A DNA stretch of 64,000 nt from Streptomyces sp. NBC_01306 (lineage in GTDB: Bacteria > Actinomycetota > Actinomycetes > Streptomycetales > Streptomycetaceae). The notes under the pieces were generated by a model. It was given only the letters and a program-made list of their open reading frames with translations, made no database searches and was not told the origin of the DNA. The stretch covers positions 372,001 to 436,000 of the forward strand of contig NZ_JAPEPC010000001.1 in assembly GCF_026340465.1 (NCBI RefSeq). The letters run 5' to 3'. Made by a program: the position numbers and the translations under genes. This document shows positions 22,416 through 29,797 of this stretch, piece after piece (position 1 is the first letter of the stretch; every line of letters begins with the position of its first letter).

Positions 22416-22454
22416 CAGCGGCCCCCCGCCGGAGGTTCCGGCGGGGGGCCGCTG
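22416..22454 (-). terminator. 18-bp hairpin terminator of the ABC export operon
   Basis: The arms 22416-22433 and 22437-22454 are exact complements (CAGCGG...GCCGGA / TCCGGC...CCGCTG) around a GGT loop, 38 bases beyond the stop of the ABC ATPase. It ends the seven-gene polymer operon before the hopanoid promoter region. Confidence 0.88.
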
Positions 22455-22491: not shown

Positions 22492-23277
22492 CTACTTGCC
22501 GGTCTCCTTCTCGTACGCCTTGACGACCTCCTCGGTCGGGCCGTCCATCAGCAGTTCGCCCTTCTCCAGCCACAGGACGCGGTCGCAGGTGTCCCTGATC
22601 GACTTGTTGCTGTGGCTGACGAGGAAGACCGTGCCGGCCTCCTTCCGCAGCTCGCGGATGCGCTCTTCCGAACGGATCTGGAACTTGCGGTCGCCGGTGG
22701 CCAGCGCCTCGTCGATCATGAGGACGTCGTGGTTCTTGGCCGCCGCGATGGAGAACCGGAGCCTCGCCGCCATGCCCGACGAGTACGTCCGCATCGGCAG
22801 GGTGATGAAGTCGCCCTTCTCGTTGATACCGGAGAAGTCGACGATCCCCTGGTACCGCTCGCGGATCTCCTCGCGCGACATGCCCATGGCCAGACCGCCG
22901 AGGATCACATTGCGCTCGCCGGTCAGGTCGTTCATCAGTGCGGCGTTGACACCGAGCAACGACGGCTGGCCGTCGGTGTAGACCTTGCCGCTCTCCGTCG
23001 GCAGCAGCCCGGCGATGGCCCGCAGCAGGGTGGACTTGCCGGAGCCGTTGGAGCCGATGAGCCCGATGGCCTCGCCCCGGTAGGCCGTGAAGGTCACCCC
23101 GCGTACGGCGTGCACCTTGCGGACACCGCGCGCGGCGCTCTTGTCTTTGCCCACGATGCGGCTGAGCGCTGCGGTGGCCGCGCCCTTGCCGCCGCCGCCG
23201 GCGTTGACGCGGTACACGATGTGCACGTCGTCCGCGATGACCGTGGGGATGTACCCCTGATTGGTTTGCTCAGCCAC
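22492..23277 (-). CDS. ABC exporter ATPase (TagH-like)
   Basis: 261 residues. Walker A GSNGSGKST (75-83), signature YSSGMAARLRFS, Walker B VLMIDEALATGD, H-loop VSHS. The TDG...SLLGVNAALMNDLTGERN insertion is characteristic of teichoic-acid and O-antigen exporters (ABC-2 polysaccharide group). It overlaps the permease gene by 8 bp and ends the operon. There is no C-terminal carbohydrate-binding extension. Confidence 0.9.
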   Translation of the reverse strand: MAEQTNQGYIPTVIADDVHIVYRVNAGGGGKGAATAALSRIVGKDKSAARGVRKVHAVRGVTFTAYRGEAIGLIGSNGSGKSTLLRAIAGLLPTESGKVYTDGQPSLLGVNAALMNDLTGERNVILGGLAMGMSREEIRERYQGIVDFSGINEKGDFITLPMRTYSSGMAARLRFSIAAAKNHDVLMIDEALATGDRKFQIRSEERIRELRKEAGTVFLVSHSNKSIRDTCDRVLWLEKGELLMDGPTEEVVKAYEKETGK

Positions 23278-24199
23278 GGCCGTACCGCTCCTCAGCCTTC
23301 CAGAAAAACACGAAGCCCACGAGGCCCAGCAGGACCGCCCAGGCCGCTGCGGCCGCCCAGACGTGCGGAGGCAGGTTCTCGGCGCCGTAACCGTCGATCA
23401 GAGCGAACCGGACCAGGTCCATGTAGACGGTGGCCGGATTCCACTGGAGCACATGGGCGATCCACGGCGGCTTGCCCTTGAGCATGACCGTGATGGAGAA
23501 CATCACGCCCGACGTGTACATCCAGGTACGCATGATGAACGGCATCAGCTGCGCGAGGTCGGGCGTCTTGCTGCCGAGCCTGGCCATGATCAGGGCCAGG
23601 CCCGTGTTGAACACGAACTGCATCGCGAGGATGGGGATGACCAGGAGCCAGGACAGCGACGGATAGCTGTGGAAGCAGACGGCGACCACGATCAGCACGA
23701 TCATCGAGTACAGCAGCTGCTGGAGCTGCTGGAGCGCGAACGAGACGGGCAGCGAGGCCCGCGGGAAGTGCAGCGCCCGCACCAGACCGAGGTTCCCCGA
23801 GATCGCCCGGACACCGGCCATCACCGAGCTCTGCGTGAAGGTGAAGACGAAGACCCCGGTCACCAGGAAGGGGATGAAGACGTCGTGCGGCAGCCCCCGC
23901 CTGGTGTTGAGGAGCAGGCCGAAGATGAAGTAGTAGACCGCCGCGTTGAGCAGCGGGGTCGCCACCTGCCAGACCTGGCCCAGCTTGGCCTGGCTGTACT
24001 GGGCCGACAGTTTCGCGGACGAGAAGGCCAGGATGAAGTGGCGCCGTCCCCAGATCTGGCGGACGTACTCCATGAGTCCAGGCCGGGCACCGCTCACCGA
24101 CAGGCCGTACTTCCCGGCCAGCTCGGCCGAGGACAGACCGTCGTCGGGAGACGGGCGGTCGCTCAGCGCGACCGCTCCGTCATGGGTTGTGTCACTCAC
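23270..24199 (-). CDS. ABC exporter permease (TagG-like, ABC-2 type)
   Basis: 309 residues. A cytoplasmic N-terminal arm is followed by about six membrane segments, including VYYFIFGLLL, PFLVTGVFVFTFTQSSVM, LYSMIVLIVVAVCF, LLVIPILAMQFVFNTGLALIMARLG and AAWAVLLGLVGFVFFW. The RHFILAFSSAKLSAQYSQAKLGQVWQVATPLLNA entry is typical of ABC-2 polysaccharide exporters. With the overlapping ATPase it should move a lipid-linked polymer or glycolipid across the membrane. Confidence 0.9.
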   Translation of the reverse strand: MSDTTHDGAVALSDRPSPDDGLSSAELAGKYGLSVSGARPGLMEYVRQIWGRRHFILAFSSAKLSAQYSQAKLGQVWQVATPLLNAAVYYFIFGLLLNTRRGLPHDVFIPFLVTGVFVFTFTQSSVMAGVRAISGNLGLVRALHFPRASLPVSFALQQLQQLLYSMIVLIVVAVCFHSYPSLSWLLVIPILAMQFVFNTGLALIMARLGSKTPDLAQLMPFIMRTWMYTSGVMFSITVMLKGKPPWIAHVLQWNPATVYMDLVRFALIDGYGAENLPPHVWAAAAAWAVLLGLVGFVFFWKAEERYGRG

Positions 24200-24296
24200 A
24201 AGTTGAAACTTTCGTGTTCAAGATGCGCTGCTGGATCGGGACCGGGCTCGGATGCCGGGCCCCGGAGTACGTCCGATGCTCTCAGAATCGAGCTTC

Positions 24297-25196
24297 TCAG
24301 ATCACCGGAGGCCGGCCCAGTCGGGTCAGCCGCCAGACCGTACGCCATTTCATCGGTCGGCGTGGTCCGCAGGGAGTCGTCCAGCCCTCCTTGAACCCGC
24401 CGAACCATGCCTTGAGCGCGGCTCCGGAGGGGCGGCGGACCAGCGTGAGCAGCATCCACACCCCCAGGTAGACCGGCACCAGCGGTGCGGGCAGGTTCCG
24501 GCGGGCCAGCCAGACACGGTTGCGGGCCACCATGCGGTGGTAGACCGCGTGCCTGGACGGGGCCGTGGTGGGGTGGTGCAGCACCATGTCGGACCGGTAG
24601 TCGATCATCCAGCCGGCGTCGAGGGCCCGCCACGCCAGGTCGGTCTCCTCGTGCGCGTAGAAGAACTCGCCGGGGAGCGGTCCGGCCTCGGCGATGACCT
24701 TGGACCGTACGGCGTTGGCCCCGCCGAGGAAGGTCGTGACGCGCGAGGAGTGCATGGGGTCGGATGCGCGCAGCCGGGGGACGTGGCGGCGCTGGGTGAC
24801 CCCGGTGTCGGGGTCGGCGATCCGGAAGCTGATGATGCCCAGCTCGGGGTCGGCCGCGAAGGCCTGGCGGCACAGCTCGGCCGTGTCGGTGTTGGGCAGC
24901 AGCCCGTCGTCGTCGAGGAAGAGCAGGATGTCGACGTCGGTGCCGGCCGGGCCGAAGGCCTCGATGCCGACGTTGCGGCCGCCGGGGATGCCCAGGTTCT
25001 CGGGCAGCTCGACGGTCCGTACGCCTTCGGGGACGTCCGGCACGGGTGCGCCGTTGCCGACGACGACCGTCTCGACCGGGTCGCCGTCCTGCTTGGCGAC
25101 GGAATCCAGCAGTGCGCGCAGCTCGTCGGGGCGGTTGCCCATCGTGATGATGACCGCGCCGACCTTCGCGGAGCCGCCCGCGCCGGGGGCCGTCAC
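24297..25196 (-). CDS. Glycosyltransferase family 2
   Basis: 299 residues, GT-A fold. KVGAVIITMGNRPDELRALLDSV begins the nucleotide-binding domain; the metal motif is LFLDDDG (Asp95-97); GEFFYAHEETDLAWRALDAGW is the acceptor/base region (ED-like), and a C-terminal amphipathic part (VPVYLGVWMLLTLV) suggests membrane association. GTG 25196 overlaps the preceding stop (GTGA). Donor and acceptor unknown; rhamnosyl or galactofuranosyl-type GT2 enzymes look similar. Confidence 0.88.
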   Translation of the reverse strand: MTAPGAGGSAKVGAVIITMGNRPDELRALLDSVAKQDGDPVETVVVGNGAPVPDVPEGVRTVELPENLGIPGGRNVGIEAFGPAGTDVDILLFLDDDGLLPNTDTAELCRQAFAADPELGIISFRIADPDTGVTQRRHVPRLRASDPMHSSRVTTFLGGANAVRSKVIAEAGPLPGEFFYAHEETDLAWRALDAGWMIDYRSDMVLHHPTTAPSRHAVYHRMVARNRVWLARRNLPAPLVPVYLGVWMLLTLVRRPSGAALKAWFGGFKEGWTTPCGPRRPMKWRTVWRLTRLGRPPVI

Positions 25197-25972
25197 TTGA
25201 GCCTGCTGGAGGCGAGGACGGACACGAGGTGGAGCAGGGACTGCAGGAGCGCGATGCCCGCCAGCACGGCGACGCCGAGCCGCGTGAAGAACAGGTCGCC
25301 CCTGATCTGGTCCACGATCGCGAGGACCAGGATGAGCAGCGACGCCTCGATGCCGAGGACGAGCCGGTGGAACTTCAGCGCCGCGGCCGCCCTGCGGGCC
25401 AGCGCCATGCCGGAGGAGCGCGGCTCGGACGCCGTCTCCTTGACCGGCGGCAGTCCCTGCTGGTGGCGGGCGACGCCGACGAGGTCGGTCTCGGACTTGA
25501 TCATGACGGCGCCGAGGGCCGCGAGGGTGCCGAGGAAGGCCCACAGCCAGTCGATCCGCCCGGAGCCCCAGATGTCGGCCGCGCGCAGACCGAAGCCGAC
25601 GAGGACCGCGGCGTCGAGTACATAGGCGGCTACGCGGTCCACGTAGACGCCGACCATCGAGTACTGCTTCTTCCAGCGGGCGACCTCGCCGTCGACGCAG
25701 TCGAGAAGCAGATAGAGCTGAGCCATCAGCACGCCGAGCACCGCGCCCCAGATCCCCGGCACGAGGAGGGCAGGGGCGGCGAAGGCGGCGGCGACGGTCA
25801 TCACGTAGGTCAGCTGGTTGGGCGTGATCCGCGTGTTCACCAGGTGCCGGTCCACGCGCAGCGAAATCTCGCGCATGTAGAGCCGGCCGCCCCAGTGCTC
25901 GCCGCTCCGCCGGTCCTTGACGCCCGGAGGGTGAACGACCGGGCGGAGTTCAGCTACCGATGGCTTTTGCAT
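25193..25972 (-). CDS. CDP-alcohol phosphotransferase-fold membrane protein (final Asp missing)
   Basis: 259 residues with about six helices. The family motif D-x2-DG-x2-AR-x8-G-x3-D-x3-D reads DCVDGEVAR (Asp91, Asp94, Gly95, Arg99), Gly108, Asp112, then Ala116 where the catalytic fourth Asp is expected. The bases at the site read GTGGACCGCGTAGCCGCC, so this is not a frame error. It may use another base, act on an unusual substrate, or be a non-catalytic partner of the second such protein (27748-29523). The start overlaps the G1P dehydrogenase gene by 23 bp. Confidence 0.82.
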   Translation of the reverse strand: MQKPSVAELRPVVHPPGVKDRRSGEHWGGRLYMREISLRVDRHLVNTRITPNQLTYVMTVAAAFAAPALLVPGIWGAVLGVLMAQLYLLLDCVDGEVARWKKQYSMVGVYVDRVAAYVLDAAVLVGFGLRAADIWGSGRIDWLWAFLGTLAALGAVMIKSETDLVGVARHQQGLPPVKETASEPRSSGMALARRAAAALKFHRLVLGIEASLLILVLAIVDQIRGDLFFTRLGVAVLAGIALLQSLLHLVSVLASSRLK

Positions 25973-27011
25973 AGTCGGCGTAAGCGTCCTTGATCTGGTC
26001 TGCGGACAGGTTGAGGTGTTCCAGGATCGTGAAGCGTCCGGGGCGGGTCTGCGGGGCGTACCGCACGACCTGGACGAACTCGTCCACGCTGAAGCCCAGC
26101 TCGCCGGGCAGTACGGGCAGGCCGTGCCGGCGCAGGACGTCCGCGAAGAGCCCGGCCTCGTCGGCCGCGCCGCGCAGGTGCATCGCGAAGGCGGCGCCGA
26201 GACCGACCTGCTCGCCGTGGCTGCCGGCCCGCTGGGGGAAGAGCAGGTCGAAGGCGTGGCAGATCTCGTGGCAGGCACCGGACGAGGGCCTGGTGTCGCC
26301 GCTGATCGAGATCGCGATGCCGGAGAGGACGAGCCCCTCGGCGAGCACCATCAGGAACTCGTCGTCGCCGACCCCGCCGGGGTGGCGCAGGACCGCCTCG
26401 CCCGCGGTGCGGGCCATGGCCGCCGCCAGTCCGTCGACCGCTTCGCCGTTGACCTTGTGCGAGAGCTCCCAGTCGGCGATGGCCGAGATGTTGGAGATCG
26501 CGTCACCGACGCCGGAGCGGATGAAGCGGGGCGGTGCCTCACGGATCACATCGAGGTCGACGACGATCGCGATGGGGGTCGGGACCCCGTAGGAGCCGCG
26601 TCCGTTGTCGTTGTCCAGGGTGGATACCGGCGAGCAGATGCCGTCGTGCGAGAGATTCGTCGCTACGGCGACCATCGGGAGCCCCACCCGGGCCGCCGCG
26701 TACTTCGCCACGTCGATGATCTTGCCGCCGCCGAGGCCGACCACCGCGTCGTACCGCTTGCCCTTGATCCCGTCGGCCAGCCGCACCGCGGAGTCGATGG
26801 TGCCGTCGGCGACGGAGTACCAGTCGGCCCCGGGCAGCACCGGCGCGAGCTTCTCGCGCAGTGCCCGGCCCGAGCCGTCACTGACGGCGAGGGCGAGCTT
26901 GCCGGAGGCCGAGATCCGCTGGTCGGCGAGGAGCCCCGCCAAGTCGTCGAGGGCGCCACTGCTGATGTCGACGACGACCGGGGACGGGATGAGCCTCGTC
27001 AGTACTGGCAC
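25950..27011 (-). CDS. sn-Glycerol-1-phosphate dehydrogenase, archaeal type
   Basis: 353 residues of the iron/zinc alcohol dehydrogenase superfamily. GGGKIIDVAK (94-103) is the NAD(P) loop. SHDGICSPVS (121-130), GVGDAISNISAIADWELSH (167-185), SGACHEICHAF and SHGEQVGLG closely follow archaeal G1P dehydrogenases, with Asp170, His248 and His265 as likely metal ligands. It would reduce dihydroxyacetone phosphate to sn-glycerol-1-phosphate, the archaeal enantiomer. It overlaps the nucleotidyltransferase gene by 13 bp, so the two steps are probably consecutive. AraM of Bacillus is a bacterial precedent. Confidence 0.85.
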   Translation of the reverse strand: MPVLTRLIPSPVVVDISSGALDDLAGLLADQRISASGKLALAVSDGSGRALREKLAPVLPGADWYSVADGTIDSAVRLADGIKGKRYDAVVGLGGGKIIDVAKYAAARVGLPMVAVATNLSHDGICSPVSTLDNDNGRGSYGVPTPIAIVVDLDVIREAPPRFIRSGVGDAISNISAIADWELSHKVNGEAVDGLAAAMARTAGEAVLRHPGGVGDDEFLMVLAEGLVLSGIAISISGDTRPSSGACHEICHAFDLLFPQRAGSHGEQVGLGAAFAMHLRGAADEAGLFADVLRRHGLPVLPGELGFSVDEFVQVVRYAPQTRPGRFTILEHLNLSADQIKDAYADYAKAIGS

Positions 27012-27751
27012 GCGATGCCACGGCCCTTCGCGAGGTCGTCGTGATTGTCGATCTCGACCCAGGCGACGTCCCCGATCGGGGCCACGTCGATACGGAAGCC
27101 GCGGTTCACCAGCTCCTGGTAGCCGTCCTCGTAGTAGAGGTCGGGGTCGCGCTCGAAGGTGACCTTGAGCGCGTCCGCGAGCTCCTCGGCGGCCTCGGGC
27201 TCGATGAGGGTGACCCCGATGTACTCGCCGGTGGCCGTCGAGGGGTCCATCAGCTTGGTGATCCTGGTCACCGCGTCGGTGCCGTCCGTGATGACCTTCA
27301 TCTCCTCGTCGGCGAGGTGCTTCACCGTGTCGAGGGCGAGGACGATCCGCCGGCCTTCGCCGCGCGCGGCCAGCAGCGTCTTCTCGACGGAGACCGGGTG
27401 CACGGTGTCGCCGTTGGCGAGGATCACACCCTGCTTGAGCACCTCACGGGCGCACCAGAGGGAGTAGGCGTTGTTCCACTCCTCGGCCTTGTCGTTGTCG
27501 ATCAGCGTGATCGTGACTCCGTACTTGGCCTCGAACTCCGCACGGCGCGCGTACACCGCCTCCTTGCGGTAGCCGACGACGACCGCGACCTCGGTGAGTC
27601 CGACCTCGGCGAAGTTGCTCAGCGCGATGTCGAGAACGGTGGTCGGCTCGCCCTCCCCCTCGGGGCCGACGGGCACGAGGGCCTTGGGCAGCGTGTCGGT
27701 GTAGGGACGCAGACGCCTGCCTGCGCCGGCCGCCAGTACGAGGCCGATCAT
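26999..27751 (-). CDS. NTP-transferase (LicC/PntC-like cytidylyltransferase)
   Basis: 250 residues. LAAGAGRRLRPYTDTLPKALVPV (7-28) is the nucleotide-binding signature; EEWNNAYSLWCAR (91-102) matches the NN-x-YSL element of phosphocholine and aminoethylphosphonate cytidylyltransferases; ANGDTVH (112-118) supplies a metal Asp, and VEIDNHDDL the C-terminal one. It should activate a phosphorylated alcohol as a CDP derivative. In this operon glycerol-1-phosphate is the most likely substrate, but phosphocholine or inositol phosphate cannot be excluded. The ATG overlaps the upstream stop (ATGA). Confidence 0.85.
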   Translation of the reverse strand: MIGLVLAAGAGRRLRPYTDTLPKALVPVGPEGEGEPTTVLDIALSNFAEVGLTEVAVVVGYRKEAVYARRAEFEAKYGVTITLIDNDKAEEWNNAYSLWCAREVLKQGVILANGDTVHPVSVEKTLLAARGEGRRIVLALDTVKHLADEEMKVITDGTDAVTRITKLMDPSTATGEYIGVTLIEPEAAEELADALKVTFERDPDLYYEDGYQELVNRGFRIDVAPIGDVAWVEIDNHDDLAKGRGIACQY

Positions 27752-29523
27752 GCGGGTTCTCCTTCGTCATGTACAGCGGGTGCTCCGGAGGACACCCAGA
27801 AGCGGATGCTCTCCGCGAGGACCACGATCGCCACGGCCACGGCGAGCACCGTGAGCGCGACTGCGAAACCGTCACCGGCGGTGTGCTCCGCCGTGAGCAG
27901 GGCGGCGAGTACGGCGACCACCAGGGTCCGGCCGTCGTGGCCGCCGATCGTACGCACGAGCCACCGGGGCGGCGCGCCGGTGCCGCCCTTGATGCGGTAC
28001 ACCGTGTCGTAGTGATGGTAGGCGACGGCCGCCACCAGTCCGAAGGCCGCGGGCAGCGCCTCGTGGACATCGGAGCGGGCCGCGAGCACGAGGATCGTGA
28101 CGTATTCGGCCGCCCGGAAGACCGGGGGCACCAGCCAGTCGAGCGCGCCCTTGAGCGGGCGCGAGACGGCCGTTCCGGAGAGTACGCAGTACACGGCGGC
28201 GGCCACGGCGGGCCACCAGCTGCCGACCGGCGCGAAGAGCGACACGGCCACCACGAGGGCGCCGCCCACGAACGCGATCACCGGCAGGGCGCCGCGCGGT
28301 CCCTTGAGGAACCGTGCGAAGAGCTCGGCGAGCGGTCCCGAGTCGGCGAGGTCGGCCAGTGCCTGGGCGGCGCGGTCGGTGCGGGTGGCCCGGCGGGTCA
28401 GCGAGCGCAGGATCCGGCCGGCCGTGGTGTAGCAGGCGGCCAGGGCGCAGCCGATGAGGAGCGCGTAGAAGACGATCCGGGGGGTGGTCACGGCGGTGAG
28501 CACGGCGATCATGGCCCAGCGTTCACCGATCGGGAGCACGATCATGCGGCGCACCCAGACCGTCCAGCCGACGCTGTCGAGCTTGTCGGAGAGGGCGGCG
28601 GTGGGGCTTGTGTTGGCTGTCGCGTCGTGGTTCGCCTCGTTGAAGGAGAAGTCCACGACGTGCCGGCAGGTCTGGAGGACCATCGCGCCGAGGGCCAGCA
28701 CCCAGATGTCGTCGCCGTTGCGGGCCGAACCCAGCGCGAGCCCCGCGTAGTAGGCGTACTCCTTGGCCCGGTCGAAGGTCGCGTCCAGCCAGGCGCCGAG
28801 CGTCGAGTACTGGAGCGAGTACCGGGCGAGCTGACCGTCCGTGCAGTCCAGGACGAAGGAGCAGAGCAGCAGCACTCCGGCGGCGATGTATCCGCCGCGG
28901 GTGCCGGTCGCGGCGCAGGCCGCCGCTATCAGTGCGGTGATCAGCGAGGCGGTGGTGACCTGGTTCGGGGTCAGCCCGTGGCGGGCGCACCAGCGTGCGA
29001 TGTACCGCGAGTAGGGGCTGATGCAGTACGTCGTGAAGAAGCCGTCCCGGGACTTCACCGCCGTACGGAGCCGCACGGCCTCGTCATCGACGGCGGCGAC
29101 GGCGGCCCTGGCCTCGTGGCGGGACTGCGGGTCCTGCGGGACCGAGGCGACCAGCGTGCCCAGCTCGGGACGCTGCACAGGGGTCCCGGCGCTGTCCAGC
29201 GCCGCGGCCAGGGTGTCGGGGCGCGGTTCCGCGGCCGCCAGTACGCGGTTGAGCGCGGGGCGCGCCTCCGGCTGGACCGCGAGCGCGCCGGGGACCGCGG
29301 CCGCCGCGAAGCGGGGATCGGTCAGCGCCAGGCGGAGCGAGTGGAGATGGCCGACGAAACGGGTGTCGACGACCGCCACGCGTTCGTCGGCCGGTGCGGC
29401 GGTGAGCAGCTGCGCGGTCTCTGCCGCGTCGGCTGCGATGCGTACATCGAAGCCCAGCGACCGCAGATCGCCCTCCAGCGACGATCCGGGTACCGGCGCA
29501 CCGGCGAGGATGGCGGTCGACAG
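27748..29523 (-). CDS. Two-domain CDP-alcohol phosphotransferase (DUF5941 type), probable CTG start
   Basis: About 591 residues. An N-terminal soluble domain of roughly 150 residues begins STAILAGAPVPGSSLEGDLRSLGFDVRIAAD. The membrane CDP-alcohol phosphotransferase domain carries all four Asp: DCTDGQLAR (226-234), Gly243, Asp247, Asp251. A C-terminal multi-helix domain (about 300 residues) follows. GTG 29379 would cut into the conserved-looking N-terminal domain; the only in-frame candidate beyond it after the upstream stop is CTG 29523, with AAGGAG nine bases before. First gene of the operon. Confidence 0.78.
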   Translation of the reverse strand: MSTAILAGAPVPGSSLEGDLRSLGFDVRIAADAAETAQLLTAAPADERVAVVDTRFVGHLHSLRLALTDPRFAAAAVPGALAVQPEARPALNRVLAAAEPRPDTLAAALDSAGTPVQRPELGTLVASVPQDPQSRHEARAAVAAVDDEAVRLRTAVKSRDGFFTTYCISPYSRYIARWCARHGLTPNQVTTASLITALIAAACAATGTRGGYIAAGVLLLCSFVLDCTDGQLARYSLQYSTLGAWLDATFDRAKEYAYYAGLALGSARNGDDIWVLALGAMVLQTCRHVVDFSFNEANHDATANTSPTAALSDKLDSVGWTVWVRRMIVLPIGERWAMIAVLTAVTTPRIVFYALLIGCALAACYTTAGRILRSLTRRATRTDRAAQALADLADSGPLAELFARFLKGPRGALPVIAFVGGALVVAVSLFAPVGSWWPAVAAAVYCVLSGTAVSRPLKGALDWLVPPVFRAAEYVTILVLAARSDVHEALPAAFGLVAAVAYHHYDTVYRIKGGTGAPPRWLVRTIGGHDGRTLVVAVLAALLTAEHTAGDGFAVALTVLAVAVAIVVLAESIRFWVSSGAPAVHDEGEPA

Positions 29524-29797
29524 ACGAACTCACTCCTTGGAGCTGGCGTAACACACGCGGAGACGGCCCGGTCCCGGCAGGGGCGGGCGGCATGTCGGCA
29601 GAGGCTATCTGATGGACGTAAGCAGGCGTTCACGGGCCGTTTACGTCCCGATCCGACCGGGCATGACCCCGCGCCACCTGCTGCGGTCATCATGATCGAT
29701 CCATGCCTCGCCCCACAAACCGTGCTCCCGTTCCGCTCGGAAGAGGCAGAGCCGCGGTGTCTCCGGGGCGTCTCCGGGGTGTCTTAGGGTGGCCGGT
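29524..29797. other. 274-bp divergent promoter region
   Basis: Separates the polymer operon (minus) from galE (plus). It contains the inverted repeat at 29614-29648 and short CCGGGGCGTCT direct repeats near 29760-29780. No clear -10/-35 pair could be chosen. Confidence 0.5.
29614..29648. promoter_or_regulatory. Inverted repeat between polymer operon and galE
   Basis: GGACGTAA (29614-29621) and TTACGTCC (29641-29648) are exact complements 19 bp apart, centred about 110 bp from the polymer-operon start. A plausible regulator site or RNA structure; no adjacent regulator gene points to a binder. Confidence 0.5.

Follow-up and report, generated by a model that had tools for sequence, protein, structure and literature searches.

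The dehydrogenase that makes sn-glycerol-1-phosphate (G1P), G1PDH, sets the handedness of archaeal lipids. Among bacteria it occurs mainly in Firmicutes and Actinobacteria, some Streptomyces being described as having all three archaeal lipid genes (available portion of PMC6431249; 2019), and, as far as the accessible text of the two papers goes, its bacterial copies enter arguments on the last common ancestor and on archaeal-like lipids of bacteria (PMC6431249, PMC1586193), the actinobacterial enzyme being used in an argument on archaeal origins (PMC1586193). The usual split in handedness is stated in the accessible part of PMC5974469, in which two TagF-like polymerases consume cytidine diphosphate (CDP)-glycerol of both hands in vitro. 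A Streptomyces synteny block, crtB-tagG-tagH-araM-CDP-AP-GT2-NTP, has been linked to teichoic acid biosynthesis (available sections of PMC13118837; 2026). Among open-licence full texts, we found no proposal of CDP-sn-glycerol-1-phosphate as a natural donor, nor of a CDP-alcohol phosphotransferase in teichoic-acid synthesis. Here we describe a seven-gene cluster of Streptomyces sp. NBC_01306 that includes a G1PDH-like gene, within a stretch of 64,000 nt (NZ_JAPEPC010000001.1, positions 372,001 to 436,000), the whole of which is called the window.

The cluster lies on the minus strand (29523-22492) with all frames open, in the order CAP1, NTP, ADH, CAP2, GT2, ABC permease and ABC ATPase. Five junctions overlap (CAP1/NTP by 4 nt, as ATGA, NTP/ADH by 13, ADH/CAP2 by 23, CAP2/GT2 by 4, and permease/ATPase by 8), the only exception being the 97-nt spacing between GT2 and the permease. 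An earlier note on this DNA had described seven minus-strand genes, most of them overlapping, and this layout was confirmed at the place given:

29533..29538, minus strand: Shine-Dalgarno-like AAGGAG, 9 nt ahead of the CAP1 CTG (sequence; leader conserved among orthologues)
27748..29523, minus strand: CAP1, 591 aa, degenerate nucleotidyltransferase-fold N-terminus (about 1-145), CDP-alcohol phosphotransferase and C-terminal DUF5941; CTG start (PF01066 and PF19365, model and structure matches, start-codon comparison)
26999..27751, minus strand: NTP, 250 aa, LicC/PntC/IPCT-like nucleotidyltransferase, predicted cytidine triphosphate (CTP):glycerol-phosphate cytidylyltransferase (PF00483, profile and structure comparison)
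25950..27011, minus strand: ADH, 353 aa, glycerol-1-phosphate-dehydrogenase-like, Fe-ADH_2 (PF13685, 1.5e-30)
25193..25972, minus strand: CAP2, 259 aa, second CDP-alcohol phosphotransferase-fold protein, fourth motif Asp replaced by Ala (PF01066)
24297..25196, minus strand: GT2 glycosyltransferase, 299 aa, GTG start (PF00535; the single weak PDB match is a glucosyltransferase)
23270..24199, minus strand: ABC-2 exporter permease, TagG/TarG-like (PF01061, PDB comparison)
22492..23277, minus strand: ABC exporter ATPase, TagH/TarH-like (PF00005, PDB comparison)

We judge it marginally better than an even call that this cluster makes a surface polymer, with G1P supplied by ADH, CDP-glycerol by NTP, transfer by CAP1 and completion by GT2 and the exporter. 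By rough estimate for the separate parts, ADH very probably yields G1P, which it would form from dihydroxyacetone phosphate; CDP-glycerol is the probable product of NTP, which would combine G1P with CTP and give the handedness opposite to the usual one. CAP1 is on balance likely to be the transferase, using CDP-glycerol at the membrane to add glycerol phosphate to an acceptor linked to lipid. CAP2, without the usual fourth Asp, would assist CAP1 or serve another acceptor, and GT2 would add sugars. Export to the surface is a likely step, in which the lipid-linked chain would leave the cell through the TagGH-like exporter; attachment to the wall would then fall to LCP ligases whose genes lie elsewhere. 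We infer these reactions, together with the handedness, the nature of the acceptor and the polymer itself, from the observed gene identities, overlaps, conservation and partners, the motif states and the missing PcrB. The G1P and CDP-glycerol idea of the earlier note is thus kept as the best-supported reading, with corrections: the gene families, the exporter, the absence of PcrB, the conserved NTP-ADH pair and the wall-polymer context agree with it, while the equivalence of CAP1 and CAP2 and the contrast with TagD had to be revised, as set out below.

The closeness of ADH to the G1PDHs was assessed by profile scores and motifs. Against the PDB, its profile scored 255 bits with 3ce9, 227 with 4rgq and 4rfl, 211 with 5fb3 and 144 with 9h4x, other glycerol dehydrogenase chains reaching at most 100; with the single sequence the values were 144 (4rgq), 141 (3ce9) and 126 (5fb3), and at most 65 for other glycerol dehydrogenases. 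The solved relatives above 140 bits of the profile are therefore four chains named G1P dehydrogenase plus 3ce9, well above the other glycerol dehydrogenases, in line with the original assignment as an archaeal-type enzyme. Residues D170, H248 and H265, which we take to be the metal-site Asp and two His of the Fe-ADH_2 domain, are conserved in 98, 102 and 102 of 103 rows. Near the metal site, D-G-x-x-S-P and R-P-x-S-G-x-x-H, as in the G1PDHs 4rgq and 5fb3, are kept in 101-103 of the 103 rows. In this comparison, which took in the solved G1PDHs and 3ce9, with proven glycerol dehydrogenases outside it, the final Pro of the first motif was missing in 9h4x and the Arg of the second in 3ce9. Distant ADH paralogues had neither motif (L160, L162, and L163) or only the second (L161).

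In the PDB, the closest matches to the profile of NTP are LicC, PntC and 4jd0, PntC being close by structure as well, and this bears out its description as a LicC/PntC-like nucleotidyltransferase. Its association with ADH was followed in 41 genomes of the same genus (taken as Streptomyces from named loci sharing the gene order) and in 80 named loci, the best of 544 confirmed relatives and hence near the query, which span Micromonospora, Nonomuraea, Actinoplanes, Nocardiopsis, Thermoleophilia, Nitriliruptoraceae and others. Both genes were present in 41/41 same-genus genomes, so that the pair probably belongs to the core functions of these antibiotic producers. NTP is the gene immediately upstream of ADH in 78 of the 80 named loci, in the same orientation and never more than 155 nt away (the two overlap in 51); L081 and L082 are the two loci with no NTP there. 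Since all seven genes also recur in the same order in named Streptomyces loci (e.g., L145 and L152), the adjacency is not a matter of chance, and the conservation across actinobacteria that had been set beforehand as a test was found for this pair. Searched by tblastn in the 80 loci, NTP was detected in 78, CAP2 in 52, GT2 in 49, CAP1 in 46, the ATPase in 23 (some of these matches being other ABC proteins) and the permease in 22. That NTP is retained with ADH more than the other partners fits two consecutive steps. Of 16 phylum loci in which ADH is 36-44% identical, 10 had NTP within 1.5-kb flanks.

The two CDP-alcohol phosphotransferase-fold proteins reported before both match PF01066, although they are not equivalent. 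CAP1 carries the full D..DG..AR........G...D...D motif, with Asp at the fourth position in 50 of 57 rows (a gap in four, another residue in three). In the CAP2 group (the window protein at 25193-25972 and 56 orthologues), seven motif positions are kept in 57/57 and the fourth Asp in none, being replaced by His (40) or Ala (17). The fourth Asp of CDP-alcohol phosphotransferases is the catalytic base. As for the C-terminal domain of CAP1, DUF5941 tends to accompany ADH. It was found in 13 of the 296 genomes of a phylum draw, each of which belongs to the 14 genomes whose ADH reaches at least 47% identity; in one of them (G204), about 0.9 Mb separates the two genes. In a class draw of 296 genomes, DUF5941 appeared in 79, ADH (E 1e-50) in 72 and both in 62, from seven families, the hypergeometric value for this overlap taking no account of kinship.

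The closest curated models of CAP1, CAP2 and a further CDP-alcohol phosphotransferase from Micromonosporaceae are of inositol type (archaetidylinositol phosphate synthase, DIPPS, and PIP synthase), all below cut-off, and the top Foldseek ranks for CAP1 are AF2299, IPCT-DIPPS and PIP synthases. Moreover, two relatives of NTP, 4jd0 from T. maritima and 2xme, are inositol-1-phosphate cytidylyltransferases. These results favor an alternative in which NTP activates another alcohol phosphate (inositol phosphate, phosphocholine, or a phosphonate) and the G1P from ADH is an acceptor or side chain. G1P as an acceptor has a precedent in the archaeal synthesis of glycero-phospho-inositol or di-inositol-phosphate. 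However, by the counts given above, the association of NTP with ADH is tighter than that with CAP1 or CAP2, and there was no inositol-phosphate synthase among the few Pfam-run neighbors, although no genome-wide search for one was made. We regard this alternative as unlikely, and glycerol phosphate is predicted as the substrate of NTP because its gene partner is a G1PDH-like enzyme.

The export step and the wall context rest on the remaining genes and on the neighborhoods. Among solved structures, the ATPase is nearest to TagH/TarH (182 and 173 bits), below the curated TagH cut-offs, and matches for the permease were at 48, 47 and, in the case of TarG (6jbh), 42 bits, so that the TagGH-like exporter proposed originally was recovered. 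A permease paralog was present in 34 of the 41 same-genus genomes, in 26 of them no more than 20 kb from a PF04464 gene. Many Streptosporangiales-type loci include an LCP-ligase family (27/80 loci) and an IspD-reductase fusion family (22/80), identified with Pfam from one and two members, respectively. In L037, from a more distant actinobacterium, genes for a DUF4012 protein, a phosphodiesterase and a sugar transferase of the Bac_transf family accompany NTP-ADH, and in L138, from a Frankiales metagenome-assembled genome, CAP1-NTP-ADH adjoins a PF04464 gene. In G314, where the contig ends within the NTP of a second NTP-ADH copy, two TarF-like genes scoring 343 and 194 bits (under the cut-off) are a few kilobases away, and an Obg-like gene lies in between. 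The genes of wall-polymer type in related loci are thus those for LCP ligases, IspD-reductase fusions and TarF-like polymerases.

Additional copies were seen elsewhere. A second ADH with an NTP gene occurs in G314 (L060) and G298 (L061), with an Obg-like gene nearby in both and, in L061, downstream of an RNase E-like gene (both names being read from sequence). Two ADH matches were also present in the same-genus genomes G442, G472 and G578, and a second NTP copy of G321 (G321:C1:5733880-5734618) is fragmented over different frames.

A role of G1P in archaeal-like ether lipids, by the AraM-PcrB route, would accord with the naming of Streptomyces among bacteria that have species with all three archaeal lipid genes, in the accessible text of PMC6431249. 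Yet PcrB was detected in none of the 41 same-genus genomes. In the class draw, 26/296 genomes had weak matches, one marginally over the cut-off, and none of the 26 was among the 72 ADH-positive genomes (the PcrB and ADH draws were taken as the same 296 genomes, since their handles agree where listed). The control search was positive in 7 of 14 known genomes. The lack of a PcrB-like gene claimed in the earlier note thus extends well beyond the window, and for the genomes sampled the result gives no support to the three-gene claim as it appears in the available part of that paper. On this gene content the lipid route was rejected, and we consider it highly improbable.

Several results weigh against the surface-polymer reading. 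The top-scoring solved relative of ADH, 3ce9, is a glycerol dehydrogenase by its depositors' name, and the curated G1PDH equivalog NF002022 gave 230.9 bits, short of its cut-off of 413, for which reason we call ADH only G1PDH-like. Together with the IspD-reductase fusions, which suggest that other CDP-polyols are used in related loci, these scores would suit a scheme in which ADH reduces a different phospho-ketose, so that a polyol other than glycerol would be activated with CDP for a teichoic-acid-like polymer. We see this as quite unlikely, given that the G1PDH-type motifs are kept across the ADH group and that all its solved relatives above 140 bits, apart from 3ce9, bear the G1PDH name. 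NTP in turn falls under all curated cut-offs. By fold, UTP (uridine triphosphate)-sugar enzymes are level with 4jd0 and LicC, and since high ranks for NTP or the N-terminal domain of CAP1 also go to IspD, TarI and UTP-sugar enzymes, the nucleotide is not decided by fold alone. The neighbor sets around NTP-ADH vary over the 80 loci. In Micromonosporaceae, the pair is followed by a different CDP-alcohol phosphotransferase (family in 16/80 loci; Pfam run on one member, motif intact in the five inspected), and L013, one of 14 closer phylum loci, has no NTP nearby. DUF5941 was found without ADH in 17 of 79 genomes of the class draw, and ADH without DUF5941 in 10 of 72. Finally, the Streptomyces wall polymers named in the accessible text of PMC11481543, teichulosonic acid and poly(diglycosyl 1-phosphate), are without glycerol phosphate.

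The same holds for part of the TagD and PF04464 searches. No TagD above the family cut-off was found in the 41 same-genus genomes, which upholds one side of the contrast drawn earlier with the sn-glycerol-3-phosphate (G3P) route. The other side was too sharp: TagD-like relatives of 58-70 bits are present in 14 of the 41, including this genome (67 bits). Such a gene leaves room for a G3P-type route, that is, an ordinary teichoic-acid system with CDP-glycerol from a TagD-like gene elsewhere and an incidental dehydrogenase, which the TagGH-like exporter would also suit. We rate it as decidedly improbable, since 27 of the 41 genomes have no TagD-like match of at least 58 bits and all 41 carry NTP and ADH, while the TagD-like gene of this genome (L069:8213-9581; C2 near 299452) is in a separate locus, beside a CDP-alcohol phosphotransferase of its own, and so forms a second pair of such genes.

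PF04464 had no match in this genome, so TarF-like proteins cannot be users of CDP-glycerol here. In the genus, it was found in 37/41 genomes, 36 of them strongly. A second IspD-like gene, which may be a source of CDP-ribitol, occurs in 22/41, and this weakens the argument that TagF-like genes need the CDP-glycerol of NTP to 15 of the 36 strong genomes, those with neither a TagD-like nor a second IspD-like gene. In these 15, NTP is a candidate source of CDP-glycerol for the PF04464 proteins; other donors are possible, and other cytidylyltransferases lay outside the search.

If the surface-polymer reading is true, it would explain why these bacteria retain an archaeal lipid enzyme while lacking the one that follows it in lipid synthesis, and if the actinobacterial G1PDH copies serve a wall polymer, the last-common-ancestor and archaeal-like-lipid arguments need another reading. 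As a tentative generalization, possible rather than likely, actinobacteria would have a second, mirror-image CDP-glycerol economy: G1PDH and a LicC/PntC-type enzyme would make CDP-sn-glycerol-1-phosphate, from which cholinephosphotransferase-like CDP-alcohol phosphotransferases, not TagB/TagF, would build an exported wall polymer, this being the role of the actinobacterial G1PDH branch instead of lipid synthesis.

Regarding the boundaries of the cluster, the start of CAP1 is most likely the CTG at 29521-29523 (minus), in agreement with the end coordinate of the earlier note. This non-standard codon is conserved in orthologs: within a strongly conserved leader, 18 of 22 rows have CTG at the aligned position and four have TTG (the window and L167, both counted under CTG, are the same gene). 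A perfect 17-bp inverted repeat with a 5-nt loop (22416-22454), possibly a terminator, lies just 3' of the ATPase gene; it has no T run and is not among the sites of the terminator scan, which gave five against 1.6 expected, every one within GT2 or the ABC genes, and from which nothing was concluded. The promoter scan gave no sites and the Rfam search of the window no match. On the far side of the cluster there are two squalene/phytoene synthase-type genes and a polyprenyl synthetase. A hopanoid link was set aside as positional, with no gene of these types among the few Pfam-run neighbors outside Streptomyces (a set that leaves out most neighbor families). On the other side, several named Streptomyces loci carry galE, a cation-efflux gene and IDI.

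Compared with EgsA and Bacillus AraM, ADH shares the Fe-ADH_2 family and both motifs of the G1PDHs 4rgq and 5fb3, and differs in its sub-equivalog score, its nucleotidyltransferase partner and the lack of PcrB. Although LicC, PntC and inositol-1-phosphate cytidylyltransferase are the nearest solved relatives of NTP by profile, NTP differs from them in having a G1PDH-like gene partner. CAP1 is distinguished from AF2299, the IPCT-DIPPS of Archaeoglobus and the eukaryotic cholinephosphotransferase by its N-terminal domain and its tail of DUF5941, a family of unknown function. The block of PMC13118837 has the same kinds of genes, with no mechanism or stereochemical proposal in the sections available. 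The TagD/TagF/TagGH wall teichoic acid pathway is similar in the predicted CDP-polyol activation, the TagGH/TarGH-like exporter and the LCP-ligase family near related clusters, whereas NTP is of a different family from TagD, PF04464 is absent here and transfer is predicted to go through CDP-alcohol phosphotransferases. A system of CDP-polyol, membrane transfer and TagGH-like export is therefore already known; the handedness and the enzyme set predicted here would be new.

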